Positions 37,493-57,064 of a stretch of 63,254 bases of DNA are shown here, in pieces. The stretch spans positions 1 to 63,254 of the forward strand of contig JAFUFC010000084.1 of the NCBI GenBank assembly GCA_017470095.1, in the 5' to 3' direction. The stretch is from Clostridia bacterium (GTDB lineage: Bacteria > Bacillota > Clostridia > Christensenellales > Aristaeellaceae). How positions within the stretch are numbered: position 1 is the first letter of the stretch; the number at the start of each line of letters is the position of its first letter. The notes beneath the pieces are model-generated. The model was not told the DNA's origin, made no database searches, and was given only the letters and a program-made list of their open reading frames with translations. A program made the translations under genes and the position numbers.

Positions 37493-39283
37493 TTACGCCT
37501 TCTTCAGCAGCGTTTTATGCACGGTGACCGACCCCACGCCCAGGTTTTCGATGGTGTATTTGCCCAAGCTGGCGGGCACGACCACGATATCCAGGCTGTT
37601 CATGATATAGAACTTGGAGGGGTCTTCCTGAGAGACCACCTTCACCTTTTCCCCGTCCACCAGAGAGAGGACGTGGAACAAGCCGTCGGTATCGTCTTCA
37701 ATCTTATCCCAGAAGATCAGGTTGCGCAGGGAGAAGTAGAGCAAATCATGCTCACCCACGATGATTTCCTTCCAGTTGTCGCCCTGGCGCACCAGGCCGC
37801 CGTGGTTGACCAGGTTATCGTTCACCCACTGCTTGGTGCGTTCGCCATGAATGACCTGGCTGCCCATTTTCAGGTGGATGGGGCGGGGAAGGCCGGTTTG
37901 CGGGTCGATGCGCTGATAATCGTAGAGCTTATAGGTGTAGGAGCCCACGGTTAAGCTGCCGATTTCCAGGATGACCTGGTTGCGGCCGGAGGCGTGCACC
38001 GTGCCGGCGGGGATCATCACCTGGGTGCCGGGCTGGGAAGGAACGGCGTTGATGTACTTTTCGTAGTCGATCAGCTCATGGGTCTTTTCAGCTTCCCGGG
38101 CGGCGGCGAAGAATTCCTCGCAGCTGTTTTCTTCGTTGAAGCCCAGGAAGGTTTTGGCGCCCTGGGCGGTGACGCAGACGTAGTAGCTTTCGTCCTGCCG
38201 GCCCAATTCATCATGGTTCTTTACCACGTAGGCTTCGTCGGGATGGCACTGAACGGACATGTTGCCGTTGGCGTGATAGGTGTCATCGTAATTAAAGCGG
38301 ATGGGGAAGTAGCCGCCGAACTGCTGCATGGCCTGGTCGCCCAGCAGCTTTTCGCCCATGGCCTGGATGAAGGTGAAGAAGGGGGCCTCGAATTCATTGT
38401 CGCCCATTTTGGCCACAATGGAAACCTCCATGGGGATCATATCAAAAATCCAGGCGCAGTTGCGCATTTCCTTGGGCAGATGGCGCAGCTTGGTGAAGTA
38501 GAAGCCGCCCCACACGCCTTCCAGATACACCGGGCGGCAGCGGAAGGGCCGCTCGCACAGTTCGTTGAACAGGGTCAGCAAATCGGCAAAGGACACCATC
38601 TGCATTTCGTCCGGCACGTCGGCAGTGATGTAATAATCCATTTTGCCTTCCTTGATCAGGTTCCACCGGACGTCCACGCCGATTTCAAAATCCACATAAT
38701 AATTCCGGCGCATGAGCAAGCTGTAAGGAAGATCGTCCTTAGCGCCCAGGTTGCGGGCGTGGCCGTACTTGAAGTTCAGGGCGGCGGTGCGGGGGGTAAC
38801 ATCCATCCAGACGCGCACGTCATAGGCGCCCTGGAGCACAGGGGTGAGGGAACCCCGGCCATACACCAGCACGGCCTTTTCTTTCTCCAGCGTCTTTTTC
38901 AGCTGCTCCACCTTGCCTGCGTCCTGCAATCCTTCATAACCGCCCTTGTATCGGCGGCCATAAAGCAGCACAGGGTCGGCCTCCCGGTCCTCCGGCAGAT
39001 AGGGCTTGAGCATATCGGTAATTTCGTCCGGGTCCTTGAGCAGGGTATCGGCGTTCACATACTGCACCGCCGTGCTGCCCAGCTGCTGGCGCAGCACATT
39101 CACCAGGGCGTTCACATCCGCCCCGGGGTAGGAATCGATGGCCACGTTCTTGTCGTCCTTGAGCAGGGCGGCAATTTTCTTGGCCACGGGAATGGCGCCC
39201 TTCAGGGGCGTTACGCCCCGGCCGGAAATGACGTTCACTGCTTCGTGATCCACATAGGGAAAGGGATGAAACATAAAACTCAT
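37493..39283 (-). CDS. class I mannose-6-phosphate isomerase-like protein, long form
   Basis: 596 residues, about twice the usual ManA. The C-terminal half is cupin-type PMI: SVQCHPDEAYV (zinc His/Glu), VMIPAGTVHASGRNQVILEIG and an arginine region YQRIDPQTGLPRPIHL. The N-terminal ~230 residues (AIDSYPGADVNALVNVLRQQL; VLVYGRGSLTPVLQGAYDVRVWMD; MDYYITADVP) resemble the nucleotide-kinase-like extension found in long PMI-like proteins, but no P-loop is visible. Likely interconverts mannose 6- and fructose 6-phosphate. Last gene of the minus-strand sugar operon. Confidence 0.8.
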   Translation of the reverse strand: MSFMFHPFPYVDHEAVNVISGRGVTPLKGAIPVAKKIAALLKDDKNVAIDSYPGADVNALVNVLRQQLGSTAVQYVNADTLLKDPDEITDMLKPYLPEDREADPVLLYGRRYKGGYEGLQDAGKVEQLKKTLEKEKAVLVYGRGSLTPVLQGAYDVRVWMDVTPRTAALNFKYGHARNLGAKDDLPYSLLMRRNYYVDFEIGVDVRWNLIKEGKMDYYITADVPDEMQMVSFADLLTLFNELCERPFRCRPVYLEGVWGGFYFTKLRHLPKEMRNCAWIFDMIPMEVSIVAKMGDNEFEAPFFTFIQAMGEKLLGDQAMQQFGGYFPIRFNYDDTYHANGNMSVQCHPDEAYVVKNHDELGRQDESYYVCVTAQGAKTFLGFNEENSCEEFFAAAREAEKTHELIDYEKYINAVPSQPGTQVMIPAGTVHASGRNQVILEIGSLTVGSYTYKLYDYQRIDPQTGLPRPIHLKMGSQVIHGERTKQWVNDNLVNHGGLVRQGDNWKEIIVGEHDLLYFSLRNLIFWDKIEDDTDGLFHVLSLVDGEKVKVVSQEDPSKFYIMNSLDIVVVPASLGKYTIENLGVGSVTVHKTLLKKA

Positions 39284-39335
39284 AGCTTTTTCTCCTTATC
39301 TTTCATGCGCTGATGCAGCGCTGTTTTCCGTATGA

Positions 39336-40214
39336 TCATGCTGGATGGCGACCCAGGGGTCCAAAGTCCAGCGTGATGGTTCGCACGCATTTTTCTTTGC
39401 CCAGCGCCGCGTACCGGCACACACCCCGCAGGGCAGCGTCATCCGGGTGCGCGGTGGTGGTCCAGGGGACGGGCAGTTTCAAATGAAACAGATCGGCGGA
39501 TTTGGCAATCTGGCCGCCCAGGGCGAATTTTTCGCAGCCCAGACGGGTGATCACCTCTGCCAGGATGGCGGAAAGGTGCTCTCCCGCCGTCAGGAAAGCG
39601 GCTTGCGCCCGGGTATCGCCGGAGCGGGCGAGAAAGGCAATGTCTTTGACTGGCAGGGCCTTTCCGAAGTACCGCTGGATGGCCCGGGTGGACACGTAAT
39701 CCTCCGCGATGCCGTCCCGGTAAGGCGTTTTCCACAGGGCCAGGGAGGGGGTCTGGGTTTCATCCACGCATACCTTTCCGTCCTTCACCCAGGCAAAGCC
39801 CAATCCGGTGCCCAGCATGACGCAGCAGGCGTTGTCCGCCCCTGTGAGGGAGCCATCGTAATACTCACCCAGCATGAAGGCGGTGGAATCGTGCAAGAAG
39901 GTGACGGGCACATGCTTTTCCTCAAAAGGCGGCCGCAGGGAATGGCCGTAGAGGGCTTCAAACTTGTGCTTCATCAGGCTCACGCCCCGGTCGAAATCAA
40001 AAGGGCCGGCAATGCAGGCGCTGACCGACTGGATATCTCCCTCCCCGTCTGTTTCTGAAAGGATGGCGCGGAGCGCGTCCAGAAAATCCTGGGCGCTGCC
40101 GTCCGCGTGGGAAGGGGTTTGCCCCACCGTGCTTTCCATCAGGCGGCCCTGTTCGTCCGCCACGCCGTACTTAATGAAGGTGCCGCCAATATCCAATACC
40201 AACAGTTTGCCCAT
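39336..40214 (-). CDS. ROK-family sugar kinase
   Basis: 292 residues: phosphate-1 motif VLDIGGTFIKYGV, acidic DSTAFMLGEYYDG with the catalytic Asp, and MLGTGLGFAWV. The zinc-binding CxCGxxGC motif of many ROK kinases is absent, and no HTH is present, so this is an enzyme and not a repressor. Together with the PMI-like enzyme next to it, a mannokinase or related hexokinase is the simplest reading. It starts two bases before the GH39-like gene's stop end. Confidence 0.85.
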   Translation of the reverse strand: MGKLLVLDIGGTFIKYGVADEQGRLMESTVGQTPSHADGSAQDFLDALRAILSETDGEGDIQSVSACIAGPFDFDRGVSLMKHKFEALYGHSLRPPFEEKHVPVTFLHDSTAFMLGEYYDGSLTGADNACCVMLGTGLGFAWVKDGKVCVDETQTPSLALWKTPYRDGIAEDYVSTRAIQRYFGKALPVKDIAFLARSGDTRAQAAFLTAGEHLSAILAEVITRLGCEKFALGGQIAKSADLFHLKLPVPWTTTAHPDDAALRGVCRYAALGKEKCVRTITLDFGPLGRHPA

Positions 40215-40216
40215 GT

Positions 40217-41650
40217 TTACGCCTCCTCCTGGAAATCCCCGAAGGTGAGCAGCAGCGGCCTGTCCTTAAGGGGCAGGTTTTTCAGCATCACCACCGGGCC
40301 ATACCCGTCGATGCCGTAGAATTCATGGCCCAGCATGGCATCCGGCAGGGCGTAGGTTTCGCCGGTCATCAGGTCGATCAGGCCGATGGTTCGCGTTTCT
40401 CCGGCCAGGAGGAAACTGACGGTGCCGTCAAAGGTTTCCCGCATCAGATCGACGGCCTTCCAGTACGCCAGCGCCTGGGCTCCTTTTCCGTTTTCAAAGC
40501 CCAGTGTGACGATCTGGGAGGAGGCGTCATCCTTCCCGAACACCCGGGGCGAATCAATGGATGTGCGGATGACGGGCAAATCGCAGGGCTTCACATTGCC
40601 GGGAAACAGGGCGGCCAAATGCTGCATGGCTCGGTAGGACATCTTGGGGGAATAGGTGCCGCAAGCCATGCCGTTTTCATCAAAATCGGCGTGGAGCAGG
40701 CCGAAATAGCCAAAGTCCAGGTAGGACGCCTTGTCCCCCACCTTGCCGTTCAGGGCCTCGATCATGTCCAGGGCGCTGAAATGGGAGGTGAAGGCCACTT
40801 CGCTGGACAGGTCCAGCAGCCGGTGGCGCAGGGTGTACTTGGCCTGCTTTTCTTCCGTCCACGCGCCGCCCCGCAGCGCGCCCATTCCCCGGGAATCGGA
40901 CTGGGTGCCCGATTCGCCCTGGATGATTTGCAGCTTGGGGTTGTAGCGGTTGATGAGGGCCCGAAGGGCGCGGATCTCGTTCAGGGCGTTCAGCTCGTCG
41001 GCATTGTAGCGGTGGAAGGAAACGGCGTCCGCCGCATCCGCCACGCCATGATCGAACATGGCCTGGAAGTAGGGCAGGTTCACGCTGCACAGGACTCCGG
41101 CAATGGCCTTCGCCTCTTTATCCGCTCGGTGGATGGCGGCGCAGGTGTCCACCGCGAAGGCGGCGTATTCGATGGGGTTAGCCCCGGTTTTCCAGCACCA
41201 GCGGCCATCCGGCTCATTCCAGATTTCATACCAGGTCACCCGGCCGTGAAAATGGCGCACGGTGGCTTCCACGTATGCTTTCCAGGCGTTTTTTTCTTCC
41301 TCGGTGTGGATGGGCGCGCAGCCTACCGCGCCGAAATATTCCCTTGCGGCGGGGGTGTAGAGCGCGTTGCCGTAGCACAGGTCGATCCAGGGCTCCTGGC
41401 CCCGGGCGATGATATTGTCCACAATCTCGTCCAGCCAGGCAAAGTCGTACACGCCCTTTTCCTTTTCCGTGCGCTGCCAGCCGGACTGGAGGCGCACATA
41501 GTGCACCCCCAGCGCAGCCACAGGGTCATAGGCATTTTGGGGGTCAAACGCTTCCCGGTCCAGTTTTTCAAAGCCTACGCCCAGGCGGGAAAAGCCAATC
41601 TGCCGGGCGTTTTTAAGCTGAACGCGTCCCGTGGGGATCAGCCGTTCCAT
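40217..41650 (-). CDS. GH39-like clan-A glycoside hydrolase
   Basis: 477 residues, no signal peptide. Catalytic pair EIWNEPD (acid/base about Glu146) and QIIQGESG (nucleophile about Glu246) with the usual spacing of about 100 residues; a beta-rich C-terminal domain follows. GH39 covers beta-xylosidases, iduronidases and others; GH5/GH30-like relatives are possible. It would split an imported oligosaccharide inside the cell. Tightly packed between the ROK and isomerase-like genes (2-base gaps). Confidence 0.78.
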   Translation of the reverse strand: MERLIPTGRVQLKNARQIGFSRLGVGFEKLDREAFDPQNAYDPVAALGVHYVRLQSGWQRTEKEKGVYDFAWLDEIVDNIIARGQEPWIDLCYGNALYTPAAREYFGAVGCAPIHTEEEKNAWKAYVEATVRHFHGRVTWYEIWNEPDGRWCWKTGANPIEYAAFAVDTCAAIHRADKEAKAIAGVLCSVNLPYFQAMFDHGVADAADAVSFHRYNADELNALNEIRALRALINRYNPKLQIIQGESGTQSDSRGMGALRGGAWTEEKQAKYTLRHRLLDLSSEVAFTSHFSALDMIEALNGKVGDKASYLDFGYFGLLHADFDENGMACGTYSPKMSYRAMQHLAALFPGNVKPCDLPVIRTSIDSPRVFGKDDASSQIVTLGFENGKGAQALAYWKAVDLMRETFDGTVSFLLAGETRTIGLIDLMTGETYALPDAMLGHEFYGIDGYGPVVMLKNLPLKDRPLLLTFGDFQEEA

Positions 41651-41652: not shown

Positions 41653-43086
41653 TTATACCTCCACGAATTCAAAGCCTGCCATCATGGCCAGGTCCCGGAT
41701 CAGGGCGGTCACATCCCCATCCACGATGCCGTAATGCTGGGTCACGCCCTGCCGAAGCAGCTTGGTGAAATATTCGGTGCAGCCCTGGCCTACGGGACGG
41801 AACAGGCTGTGGGAATAGGTGGCCAGGAAGTGGTTGGTGGGCAGGGCTTCAATCTGGCCGGTGACCAGCTGGAAATTGCCCGTCTGCTGAGAGCAGTGCA
41901 GCATGGTTTTGCGCCCTTCAGGGAACACATACCAGGCAAAGGGCGCGCCGGCGTACTTCCACTTGGTCTTGGCAAAGCGCACGTCGGAAGAAATTTTACA
42001 CTTGCCCCGGGGGTCGGTGTAATCATTGGGGCCGGCGTGACCAGCGGCAAAATTCTGGTTGGGCAGGTCGATATGGAAAGGCTCGATGTAATTGACATGA
42101 GCGCCGCCGGTAAGCAGCTTCAGCACGTAGCAGGCCACGCCGCTGCCAATATCGCCCTCGGGCACCACCAAGGTTTTCACGTCCGGGGACGTGGGCCAGA
42201 AGCCGGGCCGCAGGCCGATGTGCTTAAAGAGCACAGTGTCGATATCGTTGAGCACCAGCACATCCAGGTCATACTTCGCGGCCAGCCGCTCCATGGCGAT
42301 GGAGGCCCGGACGGAAGCCAGGAATTTCTTTTCATCCACGTTGGGCAGCACTTCATACTGCCCGGCGATACGCTTCATGGCGGCGGTGGCATCTTCGGTG
42401 CTCACGTTTTCGACCGCTTCCTCGTATTCCGCCACGGACAGGAACCGCATTTCAGGGCCGACCTGGGAGAACAGATCATAGGGATTGACGTAGGTGCTCC
42501 ACATCACTTCGTTCATGCAGGCAAGCAGGCCGAAAGTGCTCTCCTTGAGCAGGGCCCGGGCCCGGGCCGCAACGCCGAAGGTTTTCGCGCGTTCCATCAC
42601 TTCTGCCCAGGTGCCGGCGAACACATCCATCATGGGCCGATGGAAGCGCTTCACATCGCCGCTGGCTTCCAGGGAACCCACCAGCCCGCCGCAGCACAGG
42701 TACTCGGCGAATTCGTCGTCATCGTGGGTGTCCTTCAAATGGATTTCGTCCCGCAGCCGGTGGCAGAACAGCACCGGGCAGGGCGGCATATCCCGCAGGA
42801 AACGGATAAAGGCGAAATCCTCCGCCCAGGACAGGTAAATGGCCAGCACAAAATCCACCTTGGCGGCAGTGAACGCGTCGATGGAGCGCTGCACGTCTTC
42901 CCGCGTCCAGGTGATGCCGGTGAAGGTCACGTCCGCAAGTTTCGACGCGTCTTCCACCATCCAGGCGGCTTCCGCTTCTTTCCGCTCTTTATAGGAGCCT
43001 CGGGCCGTGCCCTCGCCGATGGTGGCAAAGCGCTCCGGGGAAATCAACAGCAAACCCATTTTGATGCGGCGATTCAAATCAACCAT
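41653..43086 (-). CDS. L-fucose/L-arabinose isomerase-like protein
   Basis: 477 residues. Alternating beta-alpha N-terminus (GLLLISPERFATIGEG; VDFVLAIYLSWAEDF) and a C-terminal part with VPEGDIGSGVACYVLKLLTGG and MLHCSQQTGN, as in fucose/arabinose isomerase-fold proteins. Substrate unknown; members of this fold in sugar loci isomerise aldoses to ketoses using a divalent metal. It is located between NamZ-like and GH39-like genes. Confidence 0.75.
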   Translation of the reverse strand: MVDLNRRIKMGLLLISPERFATIGEGTARGSYKERKEAEAAWMVEDASKLADVTFTGITWTREDVQRSIDAFTAAKVDFVLAIYLSWAEDFAFIRFLRDMPPCPVLFCHRLRDEIHLKDTHDDDEFAEYLCCGGLVGSLEASGDVKRFHRPMMDVFAGTWAEVMERAKTFGVAARARALLKESTFGLLACMNEVMWSTYVNPYDLFSQVGPEMRFLSVAEYEEAVENVSTEDATAAMKRIAGQYEVLPNVDEKKFLASVRASIAMERLAAKYDLDVLVLNDIDTVLFKHIGLRPGFWPTSPDVKTLVVPEGDIGSGVACYVLKLLTGGAHVNYIEPFHIDLPNQNFAAGHAGPNDYTDPRGKCKISSDVRFAKTKWKYAGAPFAWYVFPEGRKTMLHCSQQTGNFQLVTGQIEALPTNHFLATYSHSLFRPVGQGCTEYFTKLLRQGVTQHYGIVDGDVTALIRDLAMMAGFEFVEV

Positions 43087-43152: not shown

Positions 43153-44307
43153 CTATACATTATACAAGAAATAAGCTGCACTTTCCTGCCGGAAACGGCG
43201 AATTGGCCCGGAAAAATGTTCGATCAGTTCTCGGGCATCCATTTTTCCCAGGCGGAAAAGATCGGTGCCCAGCAGTTTATCTACAAAATAGGAATCAAAC
43301 TCCTCCGAATAGAGGAATTCAAACTGTTCCCCGTACATGCGGCGGATCGTTTCCATCAGCAGCAGGCCGCCCAAGGCGCAGTCGCCATATTCCCGGTCAG
43401 TGATATGCAGCTGCACCCCGTGACACAGTTCCCCCTCATGCTTGGAAAAAGTGGGGCGGAAGGAGGTTTCCCGGAAATGCAGGCCGGGCAAGCCCAGGCG
43501 GTTCATTTCCTTTGCCAGCTTCGTTCCGTCAATAAAGGGCGCCCCGGCGACCTGGAAGGGAATGGTGGTCCCTCGGCCTTCGCTGATGTTGGCCCCCTCA
43601 AAAATGCACATGCCGGTATAGCACAGGGCCGATTCCAAATGGGGGCAGTTGGGCGAGGGCGACACCCAGGGCAGATCAGTATCGTCCAGCAGCATATGCC
43701 GCCGCCATCCGCTCAGGGGCACCACAGTCAAATCCACGTCCAAATGCAGGTAATCCTTCACATACCGAGCGTATTCGCCGATGGTGAGGGCGTACTGGGT
43801 GGGCAGTTCGTAATCCCCCACGAAGGAGCTGAAGCGGGTGTCCAGCACCGTGCCGCTCAGCTTCATGCCCCCCAGGGGATTCACCCGGTCCAGCACGATA
43901 ATGCTCTTCCCGGCCCGGGCGCAGGCTTCCATGGCGTAGGAAAGGGAGTACAGATAGGTGTAGAACCGGGCACCTACATCCTGGATATCAAAAATTAGCA
44001 CGTCAAAAGCAGCAAGCATTTCGTCGGTAAAATGGCTGTTTTTTCCGAAGGCGCTGTACACCGTCACCCCCGTTTGGGGATCCACCGTGTTTTCCACCTT
44101 GGCCCCGGCCTGGGCGTCGCCCCGGATGCCGTGCTCTACCGCGTAGAGGGCGGACAGGCCATATTTTTTGTGGACCAGGTCCACGGTGCTGTTCAAATCA
44201 TGGTCGATGCCGGTGGGATTGGTCATCAAGCCGATCCGCCTGCCCCGCAGCAGGGCATCCGCCTGCTCAATCCGGTCAATACCGCTGAGTACGTGCTGCC
44301 TTTGCAT
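43153..44307 (-). CDS. NamZ-like exo-beta-N-acetylmuramidase (DUF1343, GH171)
   Basis: 384 residues of the DUF1343 family: RRIGLMTNPTGID, EHGIRGDAQAGAKVENTVD, FDIQDVGARFYTYLYSL, LDRVNPLGG and EGANISEGRGTTIPFQ are all characteristic. Characterised members (NamZ) release terminal MurNAc from peptidoglycan chains. No signal peptide is visible, so this one probably acts on imported fragments in the cytoplasm. It follows the solute-binding protein after a 132-base gap containing two hairpins. Confidence 0.85.
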   Translation of the reverse strand: MQRQHVLSGIDRIEQADALLRGRRIGLMTNPTGIDHDLNSTVDLVHKKYGLSALYAVEHGIRGDAQAGAKVENTVDPQTGVTVYSAFGKNSHFTDEMLAAFDVLIFDIQDVGARFYTYLYSLSYAMEACARAGKSIIVLDRVNPLGGMKLSGTVLDTRFSSFVGDYELPTQYALTIGEYARYVKDYLHLDVDLTVVPLSGWRRHMLLDDTDLPWVSPSPNCPHLESALCYTGMCIFEGANISEGRGTTIPFQVAGAPFIDGTKLAKEMNRLGLPGLHFRETSFRPTFSKHEGELCHGVQLHITDREYGDCALGGLLLMETIRRMYGEQFEFLYSEEFDSYFVDKLLGTDLFRLGKMDARELIEHFSGPIRRFRQESAAYFLYNV

Positions 44308-44439: not shown

Positions 44440-46098
44440 TCAGCCGCCCACGATCTGGGCATAGGCCTCGGCGCCCTGTTCGATCACTTCGTCCAGGCCG
44501 CGGGACTTGAGCTGCTCATAGCGGGTGAAGAAATCGTCCACGCTCACCTGGCCGGCGATGGTCTGGTCACGCAGGGCGCAAACGCCGGTGGAGCCAATGA
44601 TCAGCTCGGTGCGGTATTCAGTGTAGGCTTCGGTTTCCAGCGTGGGGGGCATGGCGTAGTAGCAGCCCTTGTTCACGCCTTCGTTGTTCAAGCCATCCCA
44701 GAAGGACTTATAAGCGGCGTTCAGTTCATCCAGGCTCTTGCCGGCGAACAGGCACTGCATGAAGGCGCTGGTCTGCCACATGCCGCCGAAGGGTTCCATT
44801 TCCATACCGATGGTGCGGTAGTCCACGAAGCCGTTCTGCAGGATGCTGGTCTTGAGGACGGGTTCGCCATCCACCATATCGTAGGTAAAGCCTTCCAGGC
44901 CGTAGTTGTACAGGTTAATGCCTTCTTCGGAGAACTGCCAGTTCCACAGCTTGAGGATGTTTTCCACGTTGCCGCGGGCTTCAGCGCCCCGGGTGATGCA
45001 GTTGATGTTGGTCACGGCGCGGCGTTCCTGCAGATACCGGTCGCCGAAGGGGCCCTGAACGGGCGCGACGCACTGGAACAAAGCATCTTCCACGCCCTGC
45101 TCCCACAGCGCTTCGGTGTGGGTCTGGCTCATCTGGGCCCAGGTGAAGCAGGAAGCGCACTTGTTGGCCGCCATGGTGTTGTACATATCGGCCTGCTTGC
45201 GGGTGGCGAATTCGGGATCGATGATGCCGTCGGCATACAGCTTCTGCACAGCAGTCAGGAAATCCTTATAGCGGGGATGTTCGTACACCATGGTGTAGGT
45301 GCCGTCGTCCAGCACGCAGAACTGAGCGTCGTCAGAGGCCTTGATGCCGAAAGCGTTCAGCAGGATGTGCAGGCAGCGTTCGCCGCTCTCGCCCATTTCC
45401 AGAACCAGGGGAATTTCGTCGGAGGGATCGCCGTTGCCGTTCATGTCGTTGTCACGAACGCCATACCAGAAAGCGTTCCACTCTTCCCAGGTGGAGGGGG
45501 TGTCAAAGTCGATCACGCCCATATCCTTCAGCTTCAGGGCCCAGTCTTTCCGGAAGGTCATGGACTGGGAGCCGGGCACGTTCACGATGGTGGGGATGGC
45601 GTAGATGTGGCCGTCAGCGGAGGCCCAGTAGCTCATCCGGTCGCCCACGGCGGCAACCACGTTGGGGATCAGGTCAAGGTAATCATCCAGGGGGATGATG
45701 GCGTCTTCGTTCACCAGAGCGGAGATGCCGTAGGAGCCGGGCTGGATGATGTCGGGCAGCTTGCTTACGTCGCCGGCGGCGTTGGCCAGCACGGTGCTGA
45801 CGATTTCAGCGTAGCCGTCGCTGGTACGCCAGTCAGCGTCCACGTGCACGCCGGTCATGGCTTCAACGGCGGGGAAATAGTAGCCGCCATCGAAGGTCTT
45901 GGGATACTGGTTGATGTGAATGCCCAGCATGGTCATGGTCATGCCGTCGTCCACATGGAAAGTTTCGCTGGGCTTGATGTCAGCGGCCTTCCACCAGTTG
46001 GGTTCCATGCCGCCCACCGCTTCGGTGGAGGTGGCCAGGGCGGTCGACGCGGTCATGAGCATGGCCAGCGCCAGAACCAGAGCGAGAATCTTTTTCAT
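44440..46098 (-). CDS. extracellular solute-binding protein (YtcQ/LplA-like)
   Basis: 552 residues. Signal peptide MKKILALVLALAMLMTASTALA without a lipobox Cys, so it appears to be released or held other than by lipid. The large family-1-type fold has DVSKLPDIIQPGSYG and the Trp/Tyr-rich IPTIVNVPGSQSMTFRKDWALKL segment common to oligosaccharide-binding YtcQ proteins. Third gene of the importer, after the two permeases. GGAGG precedes the ATG. Confidence 0.9.
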   Translation of the reverse strand: MKKILALVLALAMLMTASTALATSTEAVGGMEPNWWKAADIKPSETFHVDDGMTMTMLGIHINQYPKTFDGGYYFPAVEAMTGVHVDADWRTSDGYAEIVSTVLANAAGDVSKLPDIIQPGSYGISALVNEDAIIPLDDYLDLIPNVVAAVGDRMSYWASADGHIYAIPTIVNVPGSQSMTFRKDWALKLKDMGVIDFDTPSTWEEWNAFWYGVRDNDMNGNGDPSDEIPLVLEMGESGERCLHILLNAFGIKASDDAQFCVLDDGTYTMVYEHPRYKDFLTAVQKLYADGIIDPEFATRKQADMYNTMAANKCASCFTWAQMSQTHTEALWEQGVEDALFQCVAPVQGPFGDRYLQERRAVTNINCITRGAEARGNVENILKLWNWQFSEEGINLYNYGLEGFTYDMVDGEPVLKTSILQNGFVDYRTIGMEMEPFGGMWQTSAFMQCLFAGKSLDELNAAYKSFWDGLNNEGVNKGCYYAMPPTLETEAYTEYRTELIIGSTGVCALRDQTIAGQVSVDDFFTRYEQLKSRGLDEVIEQGAEAYAQIVGG

Positions 46099-48494: not shown

Positions 48495-48518
48495 TAAATA
48501 CATAAAGAAGGTGTGCGT

Positions 48519-51500
48519 ATGAAACCCGTCCAGGTCGCTGACGAAATCCGCATGATCCCCTCCTACGATTCGCCGGAAGCGGAAGAAATGCCTATGTTTG
48601 CTGAAAACCGGGTGCACCAGCGATCCAGCGGTAATCCCTACCCCAATCAGGTGGTCATGCGGGTGGACCGTGCCCACCGGCAGGACCGGCCTTTCCGGGT
48701 GATCACCCTGGAAAATGAATACCTGCGCATTGAACTGATGCCGGAGATCGGCGGACGGATTTATTCCGCCTTCGATAAGCGCACCGGCTATGATTTCTTT
48801 TATAAGCAGCACGTGATCAAGCCGGCCCTGATCGGCATGCTGGGCAGCTGGATTTCCGGTGGGTGCGAATTCAATTGGCCTTGTCACCACCGGCCCAGCA
48901 CTTTCATGCCGGTGGATGTGCACGTTGAAAAAGAAACGGGTGGCGCGGTTACCGTTTGGATGAGCGAAAATGAGCCCCTCGACCGGATGAAGGGCATGGT
49001 AGGCATCCGTTTAGCGCCGGGGGAGGCCCGGTTCGATACCCGGATGCGTCTTTTTAACCGCACGCCACAGCGCCATTCCTTCCTTTGGTGGGAAAACGCC
49101 GCCGTGCCGGTGAATGAGCGCTACCGCTTGGTCTTTCCACCAGATGTGCGCTATGTGCAGTTCCATTACCGGAAGAACGTCACCTCCTATCCCGTGGGCA
49201 GCGGCGTTTATAACGGCATCCGCCTGGGGGACGGAACGGACCTTTCCTACCACAGGAACACTCGCCAGCCTACCTCCTATTTCTGCGCCGAAACGGATTA
49301 TGATTTCTTCGGCGGCTATGACGAGGGCAAGCGCTGCGGCGTGATCCACGTGGCCGACCACACCGTGAGCGTGGGCAAAAAAATGTTCACCTGGGCGTAC
49401 AACCAATTGTCCCGCAGTTGGGAAAAAGCCCTGACCGATACAGACGGCCCCTATGCCGAATTGATGGCCAGCAGCTATTCTTTGAACCAGCCGGATTTTG
49501 CCTGGCTAATGCCTTATGAGGGAAAGGAATTTTCCCAGATGTGGTACCCGGTGGGCGATCTGGGCCTGCCTTTGTGCGCCTGCCGGGAAGCGGCGGTGGC
49601 AGCAGAGAATGGCCAAGTGCGCGTGCAGGCCACAGAGCCGCTGCGGGGCACGGCGGTGATCAACGGCGTGGAGCATCCCCTGGCCGCCGGGCCGGAGACG
49701 ATCGTTTCTTTCCCCGCGCCGGAAAGCTTGATCACCTTTGAAATCCGCAATGAAAAGGGCCGCGCCCTGCTGCGCTACGAAAAGCCCAATGATCAAGCCC
49801 TGGCCCCGATGCCCGCCACCATTCCCGATAACCCCACCCTGGACACCCTGCGCACAGCCCAGGAAGCCTACCTGATGGGCGTGCACGCGGAGCAGTACCG
49901 GGACCCGGCCATCCGTCCCAGCGCCTATTGGCAGGAAGCGTTGAAGCGCGACCCGGAATACGTGCCCGCGCTGACCAAGCTGGCCGAGTACGAGCTCACC
50001 CATCTCCGCCCCCGGCAGGCACTCGACTTGGCCCTGCGGGCCTGGAAAAAAGCGACCACCCGGAATTTCCACCCGGAAAGCGGCGAACTGCAATATTTGC
50101 TGGGCCGCATCTTGGAGGCCCTGGGCCGGGATCAGGAAGCCTGGGATTGGTACATGCAAGCCGCCTGGGCACAAGACGCCCGGAGCCGGGCGTTGACCCG
50201 GGCCGCCATGATCGAAGGCCGGCGGAACAATGGGGCAGCCATGGCTGATCTGGCGGGCAAGGCCCTGCGGGAGCACGGAGGCAACGAAACGGCCCAGCTG
50301 CTTCGGGCGATCGCGCTTTTGCGCGAAGAGGAAGCCCGGGGGCAAGCGGCGCTGCGGGATTTGCTGGCCCAGGATCCGCTGCATACCACCGCCCTGGCCC
50401 TGCTGCTGGGACCGTCGGAAAAGTTCTATGCCGCCCTGGGGGCGGACAAATGCCAGGCCGCTGTGGACATTGCCCAGGATCTTTCCGAAGCGGGCGAAGC
50501 GGCCCTGGCCGCCCGGGTGCTGGAGGCACTGCCGGAAAAAACGGCCACAACCGAGTATGTCCGGGCCTATTTGACGGGGGACGAAGGGGCCCTAAGCGGC
50601 GCGTCCGCCCTGCCCTGCGGCATCGCCTATCCCAGCCGCTTCTTGGAATACCAGGCGCTTTCCTGGGCCTGCGAAAAGCATCCCCACGACGCTAACGCCT
50701 GGAACCTTCTGGGCTGCATCCTGTATGCCAATGAAAATTACGGGCAGGCGGCCCATGCCTTTGAGCGGGCCCAGCAGGCGGAGCCCGGCCGGTATATGCC
50801 CTGGCGCAACCTGGCTGTGGCCTGTTACTCTCATTTGAAGCGGCGCAAGGAAGCATTGCCCCTGCTCAATCGCGCCCTTGAAATGCATCCCCACGATGGG
50901 CAGCTGATCTGGGAAAAGGCCCTGGTCATGGCTCGGCTCGGCGTGGCCCCCGGGGAAATTGCCGCCTTCCTGGAGGAGGAGAACAACCCCCGGGAGGATA
51001 TTCTCATCGAGCTGTGCCGGGCCTATAACCGCATGGGCGCGTATGAAAAGGCCCTGGCCCTCCTGGACAGAACCGATTTTACTCCCTGCGAAGGCGGCGA
51101 GCACGCGGTGGCGGAGCAGTACATGTTTGCCCATCACGCCTTGGGCCGCCGGGCCCTGGCGCAGGGAAACGCCCAGGAAGCGCTGGCTCATTTCCGGCAG
51201 GCCCAGCAGTTGCCGGATCACCTGGGCGCGGGGCTGTGGCATGAGGCGCTGCTGGTGCCCCATCAATATTATGAAGCAGTGTGCTTGCAAACGCTGAACC
51301 GCAGGCCGGAAGCGGAAAGCGTGCTGCGGTATATTCTTTCCTTCCGGCAGGATTATTTCACCGATATGCACCTGCCCCAGCTGCCCTGCTATCAGGCATT
51401 AGCGTACCGGGCCTTGGGCATGGAGGCTCCGGCAAAGGAGCTGATCGCCGCTCATTTGCGCCGCCAGCAAGCCGCCGCTCAGGCTGTGGATGCGGGATAC

Positions 51501-51686
51501 TACAAAACCACTCCTTTCTTTATTTCCTACATGGAGGACGCTTCTTCCCAGCGCCGGGCCGCCTGCCTGTGGCAGACCGCCATGGCCTACTTTGCCGCGG
51601 GGGACACAAAGAAAGCCGCGGCATGCGCGGCTGAATCCTTGGAATTGGACCCCAATAACTTGTATGCGGGCTTGCTGATCGAATAA
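48519..51686 (+). CDS. DUF5107 protein with long TPR region
   Basis: 1055 residues. The N-terminal ~370 residues match DUF5107: FRVITLENEYLRIELMPEIGGRI, GYDFFYKQHVIKPALIGMLG, SGGCEFNWPCHHRPSTF, SFLWWENAAVPV. The fold recalls aldose mutarotases. From about 440 on come many TPR-like helical repeats (NAWNLLGCILYANENYGQAAHAFERAQQAEPG; ALAQGNAQEALAHFRQA). No signal peptide. ATG 48519 has GAAGG eight bases upstream. Function is unknown; recurring association with sugar clusters suggests a role in glycan turnover. Confidence 0.85.
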   Translation: MKPVQVADEIRMIPSYDSPEAEEMPMFAENRVHQRSSGNPYPNQVVMRVDRAHRQDRPFRVITLENEYLRIELMPEIGGRIYSAFDKRTGYDFFYKQHVIKPALIGMLGSWISGGCEFNWPCHHRPSTFMPVDVHVEKETGGAVTVWMSENEPLDRMKGMVGIRLAPGEARFDTRMRLFNRTPQRHSFLWWENAAVPVNERYRLVFPPDVRYVQFHYRKNVTSYPVGSGVYNGIRLGDGTDLSYHRNTRQPTSYFCAETDYDFFGGYDEGKRCGVIHVADHTVSVGKKMFTWAYNQLSRSWEKALTDTDGPYAELMASSYSLNQPDFAWLMPYEGKEFSQMWYPVGDLGLPLCACREAAVAAENGQVRVQATEPLRGTAVINGVEHPLAAGPETIVSFPAPESLITFEIRNEKGRALLRYEKPNDQALAPMPATIPDNPTLDTLRTAQEAYLMGVHAEQYRDPAIRPSAYWQEALKRDPEYVPALTKLAEYELTHLRPRQALDLALRAWKKATTRNFHPESGELQYLLGRILEALGRDQEAWDWYMQAAWAQDARSRALTRAAMIEGRRNNGAAMADLAGKALREHGGNETAQLLRAIALLREEEARGQAALRDLLAQDPLHTTALALLLGPSEKFYAALGADKCQAAVDIAQDLSEAGEAALAARVLEALPEKTATTEYVRAYLTGDEGALSGASALPCGIAYPSRFLEYQALSWACEKHPHDANAWNLLGCILYANENYGQAAHAFERAQQAEPGRYMPWRNLAVACYSHLKRRKEALPLLNRALEMHPHDGQLIWEKALVMARLGVAPGEIAAFLEEENNPREDILIELCRAYNRMGAYEKALALLDRTDFTPCEGGEHAVAEQYMFAHHALGRRALAQGNAQEALAHFRQAQQLPDHLGAGLWHEALLVPHQYYEAVCLQTLNRRPEAESVLRYILSFRQDYFTDMHLPQLPCYQALAYRALGMEAPAKELIAAHLRRQQAAAQAVDAGYYKTTPFFISYMEDASSQRRAACLWQTAMAYFAAGDTKKAAACAAESLELDPNNLYAGLLIE

Positions 51687-51689: not shown

Positions 51690-52619
51690 TTACACCCTGG
51701 CGGGAAGATAACGGAGGGCGAGGGTGAAGGTGGCCCGCTCCCCCGGGCGCAGGGCGCGCATGCCCGTTTCCGCCCAAGGCAGAGGCAAATTGGGCGCGTT
51801 GATGGCCCAGGACTGGGGCTCGGGGCACACAAATCCCGCTCCGCCGCCCCCGTTCCACAGCATGATGAAGGGATAGTCGTCCCGCTCACACACGAATTTT
51901 CCCTGGCTTCCGGTTAAAAACACCGGCCCCGGCCCGCATGCTATCAGAGCGGACAGGGGCTGTTTTTCTGGGCACAGCGTGCCTTCCCGTAAAGAGCGCA
52001 GCAGGGGCGAATCGGCAATCATCTCGCCGGTGGGCAGCTTGCGCGCGTCGTCCAGCACCCATTCCCGCAGGGCCGGAAGGGCCAAACGCGCGTCGTTTCC
52101 TTCCGGCACGCGGAAAGCGGCGTGGATGCCGGTGCCCAGGGGGAACGCCTGATCGCCGTCGTTGATAAACGTAACGGTGTGGCGCAGGCCCGCCGGGGTC
52201 AGCGTATATTCCCGGATTACTGTGAACGGGTGGGGGAATTGCAGGTAGGGGTGCTGCCCATCCGCCCGGAACATCCAGGCCCCTTCCCCCATCGCTTCAA
52301 AGGGCGTTTGGCTCAGCATCCCGTGGATGTGGTGATGCCGCTCGGGCTCGTTGATGGGGAAGGTATACCGCCGCCCTTCAAACACATACGTGCCGTCCTC
52401 CATTCGGTTGGGGGGAAATAAAAGCGGCAGGCCGTACACGTTGGGCGCATCGGCCAGCGCGGAAGCATCCTTGGGCGTGCGCAACAGTTCGGCGCCTGTG
52501 GGCACGTGCCGCAGGGAAACGCAGTTGGCCCCCATGCCGGGCACGACCACCGCTTCATAATCCTCCGACCGCAGCCGTGCCGCTTGGATGCCATGCCAAA
52601 TGATTCGCTCCTGGATCAT
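51690..52619 (-). CDS. aldose 1-epimerase-like protein
   Basis: 309 residues with galactose mutarotase features: GANCVSLRHVPTGAELLRTP, YGLPLLFPPNRMEDGTYVFEGRRY, HHIHGML (catalytic His region), GIHAAFRVPEG and C-terminal CPEPQSWAINAPNLP with the usual Glu/Pro motif. It interconverts sugar anomers after hydrolysis. ATG 52619 is chosen by homology; the RBS (GGGGCGG) is weak. It lies inside the plus-strand set but on the opposite strand, convergent with the DUF5107 gene by three bases. Confidence 0.85.
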   Translation of the reverse strand: MIQERIIWHGIQAARLRSEDYEAVVVPGMGANCVSLRHVPTGAELLRTPKDASALADAPNVYGLPLLFPPNRMEDGTYVFEGRRYTFPINEPERHHHIHGMLSQTPFEAMGEGAWMFRADGQHPYLQFPHPFTVIREYTLTPAGLRHTVTFINDGDQAFPLGTGIHAAFRVPEGNDARLALPALREWVLDDARKLPTGEMIADSPLLRSLREGTLCPEKQPLSALIACGPGPVFLTGSQGKFVCERDDYPFIMLWNGGGGAGFVCPEPQSWAINAPNLPLPWAETGMRALRPGERATFTLALRYLPARV

Positions 52620-52806: not shown

Positions 52807-54813
52807 ATGCTGTATATTCTGGAAGGCAAAACATTGCGCTACGCATTGGATGAACGGGCCCGGGTGACCAGCGTTTACAACAAACTGACGGCTCATGAAT
52901 ATGTGTATGAGCCCAGTGAACTGTGGAAGCTGATCTATCAGGAGGGCGAGCGGACGGAAATTCCTGTGTACGCGTCCAACCAGGGAGCGGAATTCCATCA
53001 GGAAGGCCGTCAGCTCACCTTGGTCTACCCCACCCTGCAGGGCGATGGACGCACGCTGGACGCAACGCTGCGCATTATCCTGTCCATCGATGACCGGGGG
53101 CTGACCGCCCGGTCCGAAATCGAAAACCGGGACGAGAGCGCCCAGGTGATGGAGCTCTCCCTCACCGCAGTGTCGGGCGTGCGGTCGCTGGGCGGCGAAC
53201 CGGAAAAAGACGCGATCGCCTGGCCCCTGCAAATGGGCATCAAAGTGCCCAATCCGGCGTACAGCGATTTGTCCGTTTATTCAGGTTTCCGCAAATATGA
53301 GCGGCACGACCAGTTCCACACCGACCTGGACAATCCCTACCCTGGCGGCATGAGCATGCAGTGGTACGATTGGTATAATGAAAACGAAGGGCTGTACGTG
53401 GGTTCCCACGATCTGACCCACCACACCATCTGCATGCATGTGGAACGGGATGTGAAGCGCAATGTGCTCAGCATGGGCGTGAACCGCTATCCCTTGCTGG
53501 AAAAGGGGGAAAGCTGGCAAAGCGCCCCCACCGTTTATTGGCCTCACCGGGGCGATTGGCACCAGGGCGCCAAATTTTACCGGGAATTCATGATTGGCAG
53601 CGGCAATTGGAAAGCGCCTGACCAGCCTGACTGGGCCAAGGATTTCAGCGGCTGGCTGCGGCTGATTTTCAAGCAGCATCACGGGGAATGCAATTGGACC
53701 TTCGACGATATTCCCCGGCTCTACGACGAGGCCGAGGCCGCCGGGATGAAAACCATCTTCCTCTTGGGCTGGGAAAAGGGCGGCTTTGCCCGGCGCTGGC
53801 CCGATTACGTGGTGGATGATCGCATGGGCGGCGAAGCAGGGCTGAAAAAGGGCATTGATTATGTGCATGGGAAGGGCGGCAAGGTGATTATGTTCCTCTC
53901 CTACGCCCTGATCGACCATCAGAGCGACTTCTATTTGAAGGAAGGCGGCGCTCAGTGCACCATCAAGTCCATGTGGGGGGAGGATATCCCCTTCGCTGAA
54001 ACCTATTGCGGCGAGGGCACCTACCGCAAGATCCCCAATCCGCCCATGCCCATGTATTTGAGCTGCCCCGGCTCCGACCTGTGGCAGAAAAAAATGATCG
54101 ATTCGGCTGATACCTGCCTGGATCTGGGGGCGGACGGCGTGCTTTACGATATCGGCGGCCATCTGCCGTTCTTCTGCTACGATAAGACCCACAACCACAA
54201 AAAGCCCAGCCATTCCCACGAGCAGAAGGCTGAGCGATACCAGGGATTGCGGGAGAACGTGAAAAAACGGGGAGGGGAGCGCATCGTTTTGCAGGAGCAT
54301 GTGGTGGATGTGCTCAGCCAGCACATGGATATCTGCCATGGCATCAATAGCTGCAAGCAGCCCCAGGACATGATCGAGCTGTTCCGCTACACCTTCCCGG
54401 AACTGATCATCACCAACCGGGAAAGCGGACAGGACGAGAGCGATTACCGCAACGACGTGAACCGCACGGCGCTGCTGGGGCTGCGCTATGATATGACCAT
54501 TTACCGCTGCTGCGGCTCTTTGTCCGATATCCCCCGGTACGCTTCCTACCTGGCGGAAGTGAACGCCCTGCGCGCCAGCCACGCCGACACCCTGCTTCGG
54601 GGCCGGTTTGTGGATGAGGATGGCTTTGCTTGGGATAACCGCGCCCTGCGGGCCAAGGGTTACATGGGCGACGCGGGCCAGGAAGCCGTGGTGCTGTGGA
54701 ACCCCACGGACGCGCCCCTGACCACTACCGTTACCTTTGATAACGGTGTATCTGTTGCCTGCGCTGTGGCCCCCCAAAGCCTGGCCGTGGCCCGGAATGA
54801 CGGAAATGGCTAA
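52807..54813 (+). CDS. DUF6259-like predicted glycoside hydrolase
   Basis: 668 residues, no signal peptide. N-terminal beta-sandwich (about 1-230) as in GH31/36-type enzymes, a TIM barrel (AEAAGMKTIFLLGWEKGG; GGKVIMFLSYALIDHQSDF; LDLGADGVLYDIGG where Asp is a candidate nucleophile) and a small C-terminal beta domain. This fits the DUF6259 family, seen as an unclassified clan-D-like hydrolase. GGAGG precedes the ATG at 52807. It is followed by the lactonase gene at 21 bases. Confidence 0.7.
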   Translation: MLYILEGKTLRYALDERARVTSVYNKLTAHEYVYEPSELWKLIYQEGERTEIPVYASNQGAEFHQEGRQLTLVYPTLQGDGRTLDATLRIILSIDDRGLTARSEIENRDESAQVMELSLTAVSGVRSLGGEPEKDAIAWPLQMGIKVPNPAYSDLSVYSGFRKYERHDQFHTDLDNPYPGGMSMQWYDWYNENEGLYVGSHDLTHHTICMHVERDVKRNVLSMGVNRYPLLEKGESWQSAPTVYWPHRGDWHQGAKFYREFMIGSGNWKAPDQPDWAKDFSGWLRLIFKQHHGECNWTFDDIPRLYDEAEAAGMKTIFLLGWEKGGFARRWPDYVVDDRMGGEAGLKKGIDYVHGKGGKVIMFLSYALIDHQSDFYLKEGGAQCTIKSMWGEDIPFAETYCGEGTYRKIPNPPMPMYLSCPGSDLWQKKMIDSADTCLDLGADGVLYDIGGHLPFFCYDKTHNHKKPSHSHEQKAERYQGLRENVKKRGGERIVLQEHVVDVLSQHMDICHGINSCKQPQDMIELFRYTFPELIITNRESGQDESDYRNDVNRTALLGLRYDMTIYRCCGSLSDIPRYASYLAEVNALRASHADTLLRGRFVDEDGFAWDNRALRAKGYMGDAGQEAVVLWNPTDAPLTTTVTFDNGVSVACAVAPQSLAVARNDGNG

Positions 54814-54834: not shown

Positions 54835-55869
54835 GTGAGCGGGAAGCAATTGTTCGCGGCAGGCTCTTATACCGCCCTGGGCGGCCCAGGCATTCGGGTG
54901 TTCGCCATCGAAAGGGAGCGCCTGGCCGCCCTGTACGATGTGCCCATCGACGACCCTATCTGGCTGCAATTGAGCCCGGACGGCCGCTATCTGTACGCCG
55001 CCTGTGGCGGAGAAGGGCCCAATGAAGGGTTCGTGGCCGCTTTTGCCCCGATGAACGGAGACTATGCCCAGGGCCTGACCTTGCTGGCCCGCCGAGAGGC
55101 CCATGGCGTATGCCCCTGCCATTTGTGTGTGGCGGGCGGCGATCTGATCAGCGCCAATTACGCAGACGGCAGCATTTCGACCTTTCCTTTGGCGGATGGG
55201 GTGCCCGGAGAGATGGGCCAGCTGATCCGCCACCAGGGAAAGGGGCCCCATCCCCGGCGGCAGCAGGGTCCCCACGTGCACCAGGTGATCCCCCTGGGGG
55301 CGGATGCCTTCCAGGCCCAGGATCTGGGCACGGATCGCTTGGTGCGCTATGAAAAGCGTCAGGGCCGGTGGGAGGAGGCCGGGGCTATTCCCCTGCCGAG
55401 CGGAGACGGCCCCCGGCATGTGCTGATCAACGGGCAAATGATGTACCTGGCCACAGAACTGAGCAGCTTTTTACGCATGTTCCGCATGGAGAAAAACGGT
55501 TTGACTCTCCTTCAATCCTGGAAATTACCCGGCGACGCCTATCCGGCTGATAATTACCCCGCGGCCCTGCGGCTGAGCCCTGATGGCGCCTTATTGGCCG
55601 TATCCTGCCGGGGCGCGGACGGCGTTTCCTTTTTCAATGTGGAACCAAACGGAGGGCTGATCCCTGCCGGTTTTGCGCCCAGCGGCGGCTGCTGGCCCCG
55701 GGATATCTGGCTTTTGAATCGGGAAACGTTGCTGTGCGCCCATCAAAAGAGCGGCGACGTGTCCCTGCTGAAATGGAAAAACAATCGGCTGAATACCGTC
55801 GATGCCCTGCGCTTCCCCGCGCCGGTGGCCTTGGCGGCCTTGCCGTGCAAGGAGGATCATCATGGATAA
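54835..55869 (+). CDS. YbhE-type lactonase (6-phosphogluconolactonase-like beta-propeller)
   Basis: 344 residues of repeating blades: AAGSYTALGGPGIRVFAI, IWLQLSPDGRYLYAACGGE, GPHVHQVIPLGADAFQAQDLGTDRLVRYE, ALRLSPDGALLAVSCRGADGVSFFNVE. The HVHQ and DLGTDR motifs are those of the PF10282 lactonase family. It may hydrolyse a sugar lactone from an oxidised sugar, implying an oxidative step not encoded here. GTG start with GGGAGGAG. It overlaps the AGE gene by eight bases. Confidence 0.87.
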   Translation: MSGKQLFAAGSYTALGGPGIRVFAIERERLAALYDVPIDDPIWLQLSPDGRYLYAACGGEGPNEGFVAAFAPMNGDYAQGLTLLARREAHGVCPCHLCVAGGDLISANYADGSISTFPLADGVPGEMGQLIRHQGKGPHPRRQQGPHVHQVIPLGADAFQAQDLGTDRLVRYEKRQGRWEEAGAIPLPSGDGPRHVLINGQMMYLATELSSFLRMFRMEKNGLTLLQSWKLPGDAYPADNYPAALRLSPDGALLAVSCRGADGVSFFNVEPNGGLIPAGFAPSGGCWPRDIWLLNRETLLCAHQKSGDVSLLKWKNNRLNTVDALRFPAPVALAALPCKEDHHG

Positions 55870-57064
55870 AAGCAAATTGGCCGCCCAGCGGCAATGGATA
55901 CAGGCGGAGCTGAACCGCTGTGTGGATTTTTGGCTGCAAAACGGCTGGGATCACAAAAATGGCGGCGTATACACCTGCCTGGACCGGACGGGCCAAATCT
56001 ATTCCACCGATAAAAGCGTGTGGATGCAGGGCCGCTGCGCCTGGACGTATGCCTACCTGTGCCGGGTGTACGGCGCGCGGCAGGAATGGCTGGCGTTTGC
56101 CAAGTCCTGCCTTGATTTTTTGGAAAATCACTGCGTCAACCGGGCAGCGGGCAACCGGCTGTATTTTACTGTCACGGCGGAGGGCCGCCCTCTGCGCCAG
56201 CGCCGGTATGCTTTTTCCGAGAGTTTCTATGTTCTCGCCAACGCCGAATATTACGGCGTTACAGGCGAAAAAACGCATTTGGAGCGGGCCCGAGCGGCCT
56301 TTGAACTGTACTGGCAATTGTTCCGGGGCCAGATGGACGATCCCACCCGCCTGGGGCCCAAAACCATCCCCGAAACCCGCTCCGGTCGCAGCCTGGCCCC
56401 GGCCATGATCGGCCTGAACATGTGCTCCGTGCTCCGCCGGTGCGACCCGGAGCGCACTGGGCTGTACGATGAGCGGGCAAAGCTTTGCGCGGAGGACATT
56501 CTTCGCTTTCATTACAAGCCCGGCCTGGGCTGCACCCTGGAAAATGTGGGGCCGGAAGGGGAATTCTGGGGCGATGTGACGGAAGGCCGCATCGTCAATC
56601 CCGGCCACGACTGCGAATGCAGCTGGTTTTTGATGGAGTATGCCAACCATGTGGGTGATCAGGCCCTGCACCAAAAAGCGGAAGAAATGTTCACCTGCGC
56701 TATCAACGCCGGCTGGGACAGGGAATACGGCGGCTTGCTGTACTTTATTGACGCCAAGGGCCTTCCGCCGGAAAGCTATGAGCACGATATGAAGCTGTGG
56801 TGGCCCCATAACGAAATCCTCATTGCTTCCCTCATGGCCTATCGGGATACCGGGAATGAAGCTTATTACAATTGGTTTGCCAAAACGCTGGATTATTGCC
56901 GGCAGGTGTTTGCCGATCCGGAATATGGCGAATGGTACGGTTACCTGCGTCGGGATGGCCAGCCCACCCTGCCCGCCGCTAAAGGCAGCACCTTTAAGGG
57001 GCCCTTCCACCTGCCCCGTTCCCTGGCCATGGCCGATCAAATGATCGGGGATATGCTGAAATAA
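55862..57064 (+). CDS. AGE-family 2-epimerase (N-acylglucosamine/cellobiose/mannose type)
   Basis: 400 residues of the (alpha/alpha)6-barrel AGE family: GGVYTCLDRTGQIYSTDKSVWMQGRCAWTYA, RRYAFSESFYV, NPGHDCECSWFLMEYA (catalytic His), KLWWPHNEILIASL and FKGPFHLPRSL (second His). Members epimerise GlcNAc/ManNAc, cellobiose or mannobiose, or isomerise mannose to fructose; substrate cannot be read by eye. GGAGG before ATG 55862. Last gene of the plus-strand set. Confidence 0.88.
   Translation: MDKSKLAAQRQWIQAELNRCVDFWLQNGWDHKNGGVYTCLDRTGQIYSTDKSVWMQGRCAWTYAYLCRVYGARQEWLAFAKSCLDFLENHCVNRAAGNRLYFTVTAEGRPLRQRRYAFSESFYVLANAEYYGVTGEKTHLERARAAFELYWQLFRGQMDDPTRLGPKTIPETRSGRSLAPAMIGLNMCSVLRRCDPERTGLYDERAKLCAEDILRFHYKPGLGCTLENVGPEGEFWGDVTEGRIVNPGHDCECSWFLMEYANHVGDQALHQKAEEMFTCAINAGWDREYGGLLYFIDAKGLPPESYEHDMKLWWPHNEILIASLMAYRDTGNEAYYNWFAKTLDYCRQVFADPEYGEWYGYLRRDGQPTLPAAKGSTFKGPFHLPRSLAMADQMIGDMLK

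Follow-up and report, generated by a model that had tools for sequence, protein, structure and literature searches.

The window analysed here is the whole of contig JAFUFC010000084.1, 63,254 nucleotides from a Clostridia bacterium (Aristaeellaceae; assembly GCA_017470095.1), and the subject of this study is the sugar locus at positions 37493..57064. This locus is a real one, conserved in relatives, and it is judged fairly probable that it serves the utilization of an oligosaccharide in the cytoplasm, in which a constant core would handle one hexose through the steps of an isomerase, a kinase and an enzyme similar to mannose-6-phosphate isomerase (PMI). The three core genes are all on the minus strand and encode a putative sugar isomerase of the AraA superfamily (41653..43086), a divergent ROK sugar kinase (39336..40214) and a long PMI-like protein (37493..39283). 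They form part of a run of eight genes (48113-37493) in the order LplB, LplC, solute-binding protein (SBP), NamZ, isomerase, GH39-like glycoside hydrolase, ROK and long PMI. A divergent arm on the plus strand encodes a DUF5107-TPR protein, a DUF6259 protein, a lactonase and an N-acylglucosamine 2-epimerase (AGE); a minus-strand gene for an aldose epimerase separates the DUF5107 and DUF6259 genes.

Conservation of the core

A scan of contigs for the isomerase yielded 15 loci, 12 of them titled Clostridiales, Clostridia, Eubacteriales, Christensenellaceae or Avichristensenella and three Bacteroidales or Alistipes, and whole-genome searches added loci L026, L038, L039 and L044-L046. With the window included the total is 22 loci, 14 clostridial and eight Bacteroidales-type; G374 and L010, a single contig (60 bases taken from L025 recur in L010), were counted once. 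Gene counts refer throughout to the fetched stretches, which outside the window reach at most ~10 kb on each side of the isomerase and which, for the clostridial loci L007, L012 and L026, are limited by contig ends.

The isomerase and the ROK kinase occur together in 21 of the 22 loci, the exception being L007, where the contig ends early. A full-length long PMI is present in 20, being absent from L007, again at a contig end, and from L003, which keeps a 31-residue stub, and all three genes are found near one another in 20/22 loci. The identity of the isomerase to that of the window falls from 90% to 57% among clostridial loci and from 48% to 44% among Bacteroidales-type loci (the partial copy of L012, 75%, was left out). 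The three genes are seldom all adjacent: in clostridial loci the GH39-like gene usually stands between isomerase and ROK, a gene for a YgjV-type membrane protein lies between ROK and PMI in 7/14 (L003 with its stub included), and additional genes interrupt the core in L044 and L046. Synteny that recurs across many genomes rules out a chance cluster, and it supports the cytoplasmic oligosaccharide pathway proposed in a preliminary description of this DNA; the synteny is not confined to this genome, the condition that was named there as refuting the proposal.

Scores above 700 bits for the isomerase were obtained in 3/396 genomes of the window's order (the window's own included; 19 other matching genomes reached at most 49.5 bits), in 3/393 genomes of a second search (that of L014 included; five others at most 61.5 bits) and in 4/123 genomes of a third (that of L039 included; six others at most 44.9 bits). 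In a plasmid collection, nothing related to the isomerase was found at E 1e-5.

The genes that surround the core differ between the two groups. Among the 14 clostridial loci, with the window counted, NamZ, the GH39-like gene and the LplB/LplC/SBP set are each present in 10, and in place of this ATP-binding cassette (ABC) importer seven of the eight Bacteroidales-type loci have a major facilitator superfamily (MFS) transporter, L039 beginning at a contig end. The Bacteroidales-type loci further carry DUF6259 (four), a GH39-like gene (two), MurQ (two), a Pfam-unmatched family that looks mutarotase-like by eye (four) and, close to the core, SusD (four; a partial SusD is also found at the far end of L016). 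Because these stretches carry GH2 and pectate-lyase-like genes (L044), GH97 (L039) or a GH42-like gene below threshold (L038, 18.8 bits, cut-off 21), this suggests that the core has been recruited for different glycans with one monosaccharide in common.

The core enzymes

The first core enzyme had been described as fucose-isomerase-like, of which the sugar-isomerase part stands and the fucose part does not, as AraA aligns better than FucI. A profile of 15 isomerase sequences matches PDB entries for L-arabinose isomerases (best E 1e-5), and the window protein aligns co-linearly with E. coli AraA over 384 columns (pairwise E 0.0022, ~20% identity), whereas the alignment with E. coli FucI is worse (E 0.071, probability 0.8%). 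Residues E310, E335, H350 and H451 align with AraA E306, E333, H350 and H450, which we take to be the four metal ligands of the E. coli enzyme, and are invariant in 21/21 sequences (L012 left out). The label of AraA-superfamily sugar isomerase would therefore be the better one on these alignments. What is shared with the L-arabinose isomerase superfamily is this co-linearity and the invariant residues at the metal-ligand positions; what differs is the low identity, the lack of any Pfam model match to the window protein (of three members scanned, only that of L038 gives AraA_central, at 16.1 bits, below the cut-off of 24) and the absence of AraB and AraD from the scanned locus genes. A true fucose pathway was rejected, with FucI aligning poorly and no FucA- or FucK-type gene among the scanned genes. 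A sulfoquinovose pathway was likewise rejected: the sulfoquinovose isomerase SftI shares a weak C-terminal similarity with the window protein, the NCBIfam score of 20.3 bits is far below the cut-off of 700, and the scanned locus genes include no sulfosugar enzyme.

The ROK kinase (PF00480, 70.4 bits, cut-off 22.9) retains the DxGGT and HD motifs in 16/16 aligned sequences, and the CxCGxxGC motif, presumably the zinc motif of ROK kinases, is absent from the same 16/16.

The long PMI-like protein consists of an N-terminal domain (residues ~1-235) and a PMI-like domain (239-578), the latter matching 1QWR, which we take to be the PMI of B. subtilis, at 50.7 bits. With class I mannose-6-phosphate isomerases (ManA/PMI) it shares this C-terminal domain with QxH and HA motifs, but it differs in the 235-residue N-domain, in a score of 24 bits against the ManA model, where the cut-off is 116.2, and in an invariant lysine. 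The motif TYK is present in 22/22 long PMIs, two of which come from the paralogous loci L030 and L040, whereas 1QWR and a canonical-type PMI encoded elsewhere in the same genome, on contig C89, have TYR, the arginine of which is presumably an active-site residue. E. coli ManA aligned over 41 columns only (E 0.027) and is not usable for this position. Because the score is far under the cut-off, lysine replaces arginine and a canonical-type PMI is encoded elsewhere, the long PMI is distinct from the housekeeping enzyme. Searches with the N-domain gave nothing convincing, the best PDB match being a glutaredoxin (E 0.053) and Pfam yielding nothing above cut-off; a by-eye impression of a degenerate P-loop kinase domain found no profile support and was dropped. 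The stub in L003 lies at 14277-14369, and the remainder of the gene was not found in that stretch.

In the paralogous loci, L030:1397-14232 (genome G401) and L040:8626-19483 (G404), an importer, a GH42-like gene, DUF6259, a long PMI and a kinase occur together, and the fetched stretches contain no isomerase. The long PMIs of these loci are 72-75% identical; the GH42-like protein of L030 scores 26.7 bits (cut-off 21) and its L040 homologue is 66% identical. The kinase is BadF-type in L030 (29% to the one linked to MurQ) and ROK in L040. That both loci keep a kinase and a long PMI without the isomerase points to these two enzymes working as a pair.

These features of the PMI bear on a reading close to that of the preliminary description, in which the substrate would be a mixed glycan of mannose and amino sugars, such as an N-glycan core: ROK would produce mannose 6-phosphate, the long PMI would convert it to fructose 6-phosphate, AGE would act on N-acetylmannosamine or N-acetylglucosamine (GlcNAc), and NamZ with hexosaminidases would trim the glycan. 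The relationship of the PMI-like domain to mannose-6-phosphate isomerase agrees with this, as does the AGE (55862..57064, plus strand; PF07221, 178.7 bits), which is nearest to true GlcNAc epimerases, scoring 274 bits with the AGE structure 1FP3 and at most 96.8 bits with cellobiose epimerases, although it falls below the NCBIfam equivalog cut-off (321.9 bits, cut-off 600). Clostridial stretches also carry DUF4838 (4/14), which we understand to be linked to GH163, GH3 (1/14) and GNAT genes (7/14). Set against this, mannose is disfavoured as the core hexose because of the canonical PMI elsewhere and the change to lysine, and the isomerase would be superfluous. Moreover, none of the other 21 loci contains a match to AGE in its fetched stretch; the AGE orthologues in G401 (76%) and G398 (68%) are on contigs other than that of the core, and AGE does not belong to the conserved locus. 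This reading is considered unlikely.

Hydrolases and links to peptidoglycan

NamZ (43153..44307, minus strand), which presumably has the family number GH171, matches both of its Pfam domains far above cut-off (PF07075, 259 bits; PF20732, 156 bits), shows no signal peptide by eye and is the only copy found in its genome. The EHG motif, the glutamate of which we take to be catalytic, is present in 10/12 aligned sequences, missing only from the second copies of L003 and L011. As NamZ is present in 10/14 clostridial and 0/8 Bacteroidales-type loci, it is an add-on to the core. The second copies (L003:15472-16659 and L011:16209-17393) are 40-41% identical to the window protein and have IYG in place of EHG, from which a different or lost activity is probable.

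The GH39-like protein (40217..41650, minus strand) matches PF01229 at 32 bits (cut-off 26), and its WNE and QGE glutamates are present in 10/10 clostridial copies aligned. The DUF6259 protein (52807..54813, plus strand; PF19773, 84.4 bits) is a probable glycoside hydrolase. A profile of 10 members matches NagBb, a GH129 alpha-N-acetylgalactosaminidase, with E 0.0018 over 48 positions, and because of this match DUF6259 is likely to be an alpha-glycosidase, with its sugar not fixed by the profile. D448, E497 and D501 are invariant in 10/10 members, in a region where the alignment with NagBb scores below zero. Previously described are NagBb and the GH129-like alpha-1,3-(3,6-anhydro)-D-galactosidase DagB, with a beta-sandwich and a TIM barrel (PMC8106489, PMC5698469); the DUF6259 profile reaches NagBb, but differs in that just 48 positions align significantly and the catalytic region is not confidently aligned.

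NamZ also raises the possibility of recycling of peptidoglycan or cell-wall fragments, in which it would free N-acetylmuramic acid (MurNAc) from imported oligosaccharides resembling muropeptides while the core took the attached neutral sugar. Its presence in most clostridial loci is in keeping with this, as are the MurQ genes of two Bacteroidales-type stretches (L014, 298 bits with a cut-off of 302 and a kinase-like gene beside it by eye, and L039) and that of G404, on the core contig ~34 kb away. The DUF4838, GH3 and GNAT genes of relatives, furthermore, resemble those around this genome's own MurQ, which is located on contig C181, where GH3, DUF4838, a BadF-type kinase and a gene similar to the two-domain L009 GNAT accompany it. 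However, NamZ is lacking from all Bacteroidales-type stretches, MurQ from all 14 clostridial stretches, several of which end at contig ends, and the MurQ cluster of this genome (L024) is elsewhere and without NamZ. This explanation is thus regarded as quite improbable, and MurNAc recycling as the whole answer was rejected, with MurQ elsewhere and NamZ missing from the Bacteroidales-type stretches. The peptidoglycan links exist as associations but do not settle the role of the locus.

The ybbC gene of B. subtilis is, as we understand it, namZ. The murQRP-amiE-nagZ-ybbC cluster of that organism (PMC5061867) shares with the window a NamZ within a sugar catabolic operon, but the window has no MurQ, GH3/NagZ, MurP or AmiE among the scanned genes near NamZ. 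Two further clusters were observed. L024:1687-9290 resembles a murein-recycling cluster, with GH3, DUF4838, a BadF-type kinase, MurQ, a beta-lactamase-like gene (by eye) and a GNAT-like gene, and L032:1670-12733 (G398) joins an importer, DUF6259, DUF4838, a BadF-type kinase and MurQ and is a candidate locus for MurNAc-containing oligosaccharides.

The genome's NagA and NagB, like its MurQ, are on contigs other than the window's. With AGE not conserved, the PMI-like protein not an ordinary PMI, and NamZ an add-on, the mixed amino-sugar or mannose-containing substrate of the preliminary description is not established.

The divergent arm

The DUF5107-TPR protein (48519..51686, with its start at 48513 or 48519, plus strand; PF17128, 173 bits) matches the solved structure 5CD6 at 92.5 bits, an entry titled 'TPR-domain containing protein' that names no function. 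Genes of the window type adjoin LplB divergently in L002, L003 and L011 (65-74% identity). DUF5107 is followed by a second GH39-like gene and then DUF6259 (53%) in L036 of G397, and directly by DUF6259 (54%) in L034 of G404. Because the same divergent place is kept in G397 and G404, DUF5107 and DUF6259 do belong to the locus with the minus-strand arm, as had been proposed.

The YbhE-type lactonase (54835..55869, plus strand; PF10282, 203 bits) recurs in L039 only, among the 22 loci, and is weakly tied to the locus. The aldose 1-epimerase or mutarotase (51690..52619, minus strand; PF01263, 100.9 bits) has counterparts in the GalM-type genes of L002, L003, L005 and L006. Starts are better placed at 55862 for AGE, 52619 for the aldose epimerase and 52807 for DUF6259.

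That the two arms are separate units and neighbours by chance would agree with AGE and lactonase not being conserved with the core, and with the window-type DUF5107 being present in just 4/14 clostridial and 0/8 Bacteroidales-type stretches. The divergent placement of DUF5107 beside LplB in three relatives, DUF6259 after it on the G397 and G404 contigs, and DUF6259 in half of the Bacteroidales-type stretches (4/8) make this very improbable indeed.

Proposed pathway and the points against it

On the favoured reading, that of a cytoplasmic oligosaccharide locus with a constant hexose core, the LplB/LplC/SBP importer would take up a short glycan, which cytoplasmic NamZ, GH39-like and GH129-like DUF6259 enzymes would trim, and the aldose epimerase would equilibrate the anomers set free. 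The AraA-type isomerase would interconvert the aldose and ketose of one released hexose, ROK would phosphorylate the sugar, and interconversion of sugar phosphates would fall to the PMI-like enzyme, which has lysine in place of arginine, so that carbon would enter the hexose-phosphate pool. The enzyme activities, the cytoplasmic location and the order of steps are here predicted from the gene content, gene order, conservation and motifs that were observed. The hexose seems more likely to be galactose-like, or some other hexose, than plain mannose. Stretches of relatives carry GH36 (L003) and GH42 (L009, with a near-identical gene in L010), and, judging by family names, these and the GH129-like family would fit a sugar of galactose type.

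Several observations weigh against this pathway. The isomerase is rare, and two other genomes of the window's genus do not have it; its alignment with AraA has a low HH probability (13%). The PMI is lost from L003, and of the two Bacteroidales-type GH39-like proteins, that of L046 has both motifs and that of L014 has WNE only, the second not being found by a simple pattern. No characterised close relative of any core enzyme was found among the libraries searched, and the substrate is not fixed. An isomerase and a PMI together are redundant for mannose or glucose, and for most rare hexoses the two alone do not give a central metabolite. Finally, since L030 and L040 have no isomerase, the three core enzymes need not act on one sugar.

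A more specific proposal is put forward tentatively, as one we lean slightly away from: that isomerase, ROK and long PMI are an undescribed hexose module of Clostridia-type and Bacteroidales-type bacteria, that, through the change of arginine to lysine and a new N-domain, the PMI fold may have been retuned away from mannose 6-phosphate to another hexose phosphate, and that DUF6259 may be the matching exo-glycosidase family.

Gene arrangement, regulation and surroundings

The minus-strand run had been counted as nine genes led by LplB, LplC and a YtcQ-type protein; the kinds of gene were correct, and the number is eight. From LplB to PMI the intergenic gaps are 16, 67, 132, 66, 2, 2 and 52 bases, the last four of which agree with the spacing of 2-66 bases given for the enzyme run. 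The importer genes, all on the minus strand, encode an LplB-type ABC permease (47127..48113, alternative start possibly 48053; PF00528, 57.6 bits), an LplC-type ABC permease (46166..47110; PF00528, 45.7 bits) and a YtcQ-type SBP (44440..46098) with an N-terminal signal by eye, the last of which scores 25.6 bits with PF13416, slightly below the cut-off of 27. Pfam matches bear out the divergent set as first described, with DUF5107-TPR, DUF6259, lactonase and AGE and an aldose epimerase between, and the intergenic region common to both arms is 48114-48512, also as described.

Within this region, before DUF5107, are a tentative promoter-like site (48419-48447, plus strand; two such sites were found and 0.7 expected) and a tentative perfect 14-base palindrome, TTGATCGTGATCAA (48481-48494, plus strand), for which 0.19 chance matches are expected at one mismatch. 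A conserved operator was rejected, as the palindrome was matched in 0/51 loci.

The scanned locus genes include no transporter ATPase and no regulator, in line with what had been noted, though no search of the genome was made for the ATPase of the importer. Relatives carry an RpiR-type regulator in L002 (Pfam), with a look-alike by eye in L009 and L010, a Peripla_BP_3 (LacI-like) protein in L003, and GntR-type regulators in 6/8 Bacteroidales-type loci (L014 by Pfam, the rest by similarity). Since some relatives thus have regulator genes within their loci or next to them, the absence of one here is a local feature.

A terminator-like hairpin (37421..37449, minus strand) follows the eight-gene run, with an 11-pair stem containing eight G-C pairs and then TTTTTTT. 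Terminator-like sites are not enriched (14 in the region, 13.7 in shuffles), and only the strength and place of the hairpin favour 37449-37421. Because it comes just after PMI, a downstream open reading frame of 338 residues is probably outside the operon. Past the terminator, 36422-37261 encodes a predicted exported protein (signal by eye) that has no Pfam or NCBIfam match. Further along, 31645-35814 encodes the alpha and beta subunits of indolepyruvate ferredoxin oxidoreductase, a protein similar to phenylacetate-CoA ligase and a short protein whose ACT-type matches are weak, and six clustered tRNA genes are found at 62533-63187, at the contig end.

Literature and significance

In the open-licence literature, no text joins L-fucose isomerase, ROK, mannose-6-phosphate isomerase and polysaccharide utilization locus, and the partial overlaps are, by title, genome descriptions. 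DUF6259 and PF19773 do not occur among the literature matches listed, and DUF5107 occurs just in work on marine stramenopiles, judging by title. Many sugar loci of the gut and rumen have substrates that cannot be named. A module of three enzymes that is found in two distant bacterial groups, with each family departing from its textbook relatives, is a tractable route to a new sugar pathway, and it could reveal what DUF6259 and a new family of isomerases do.

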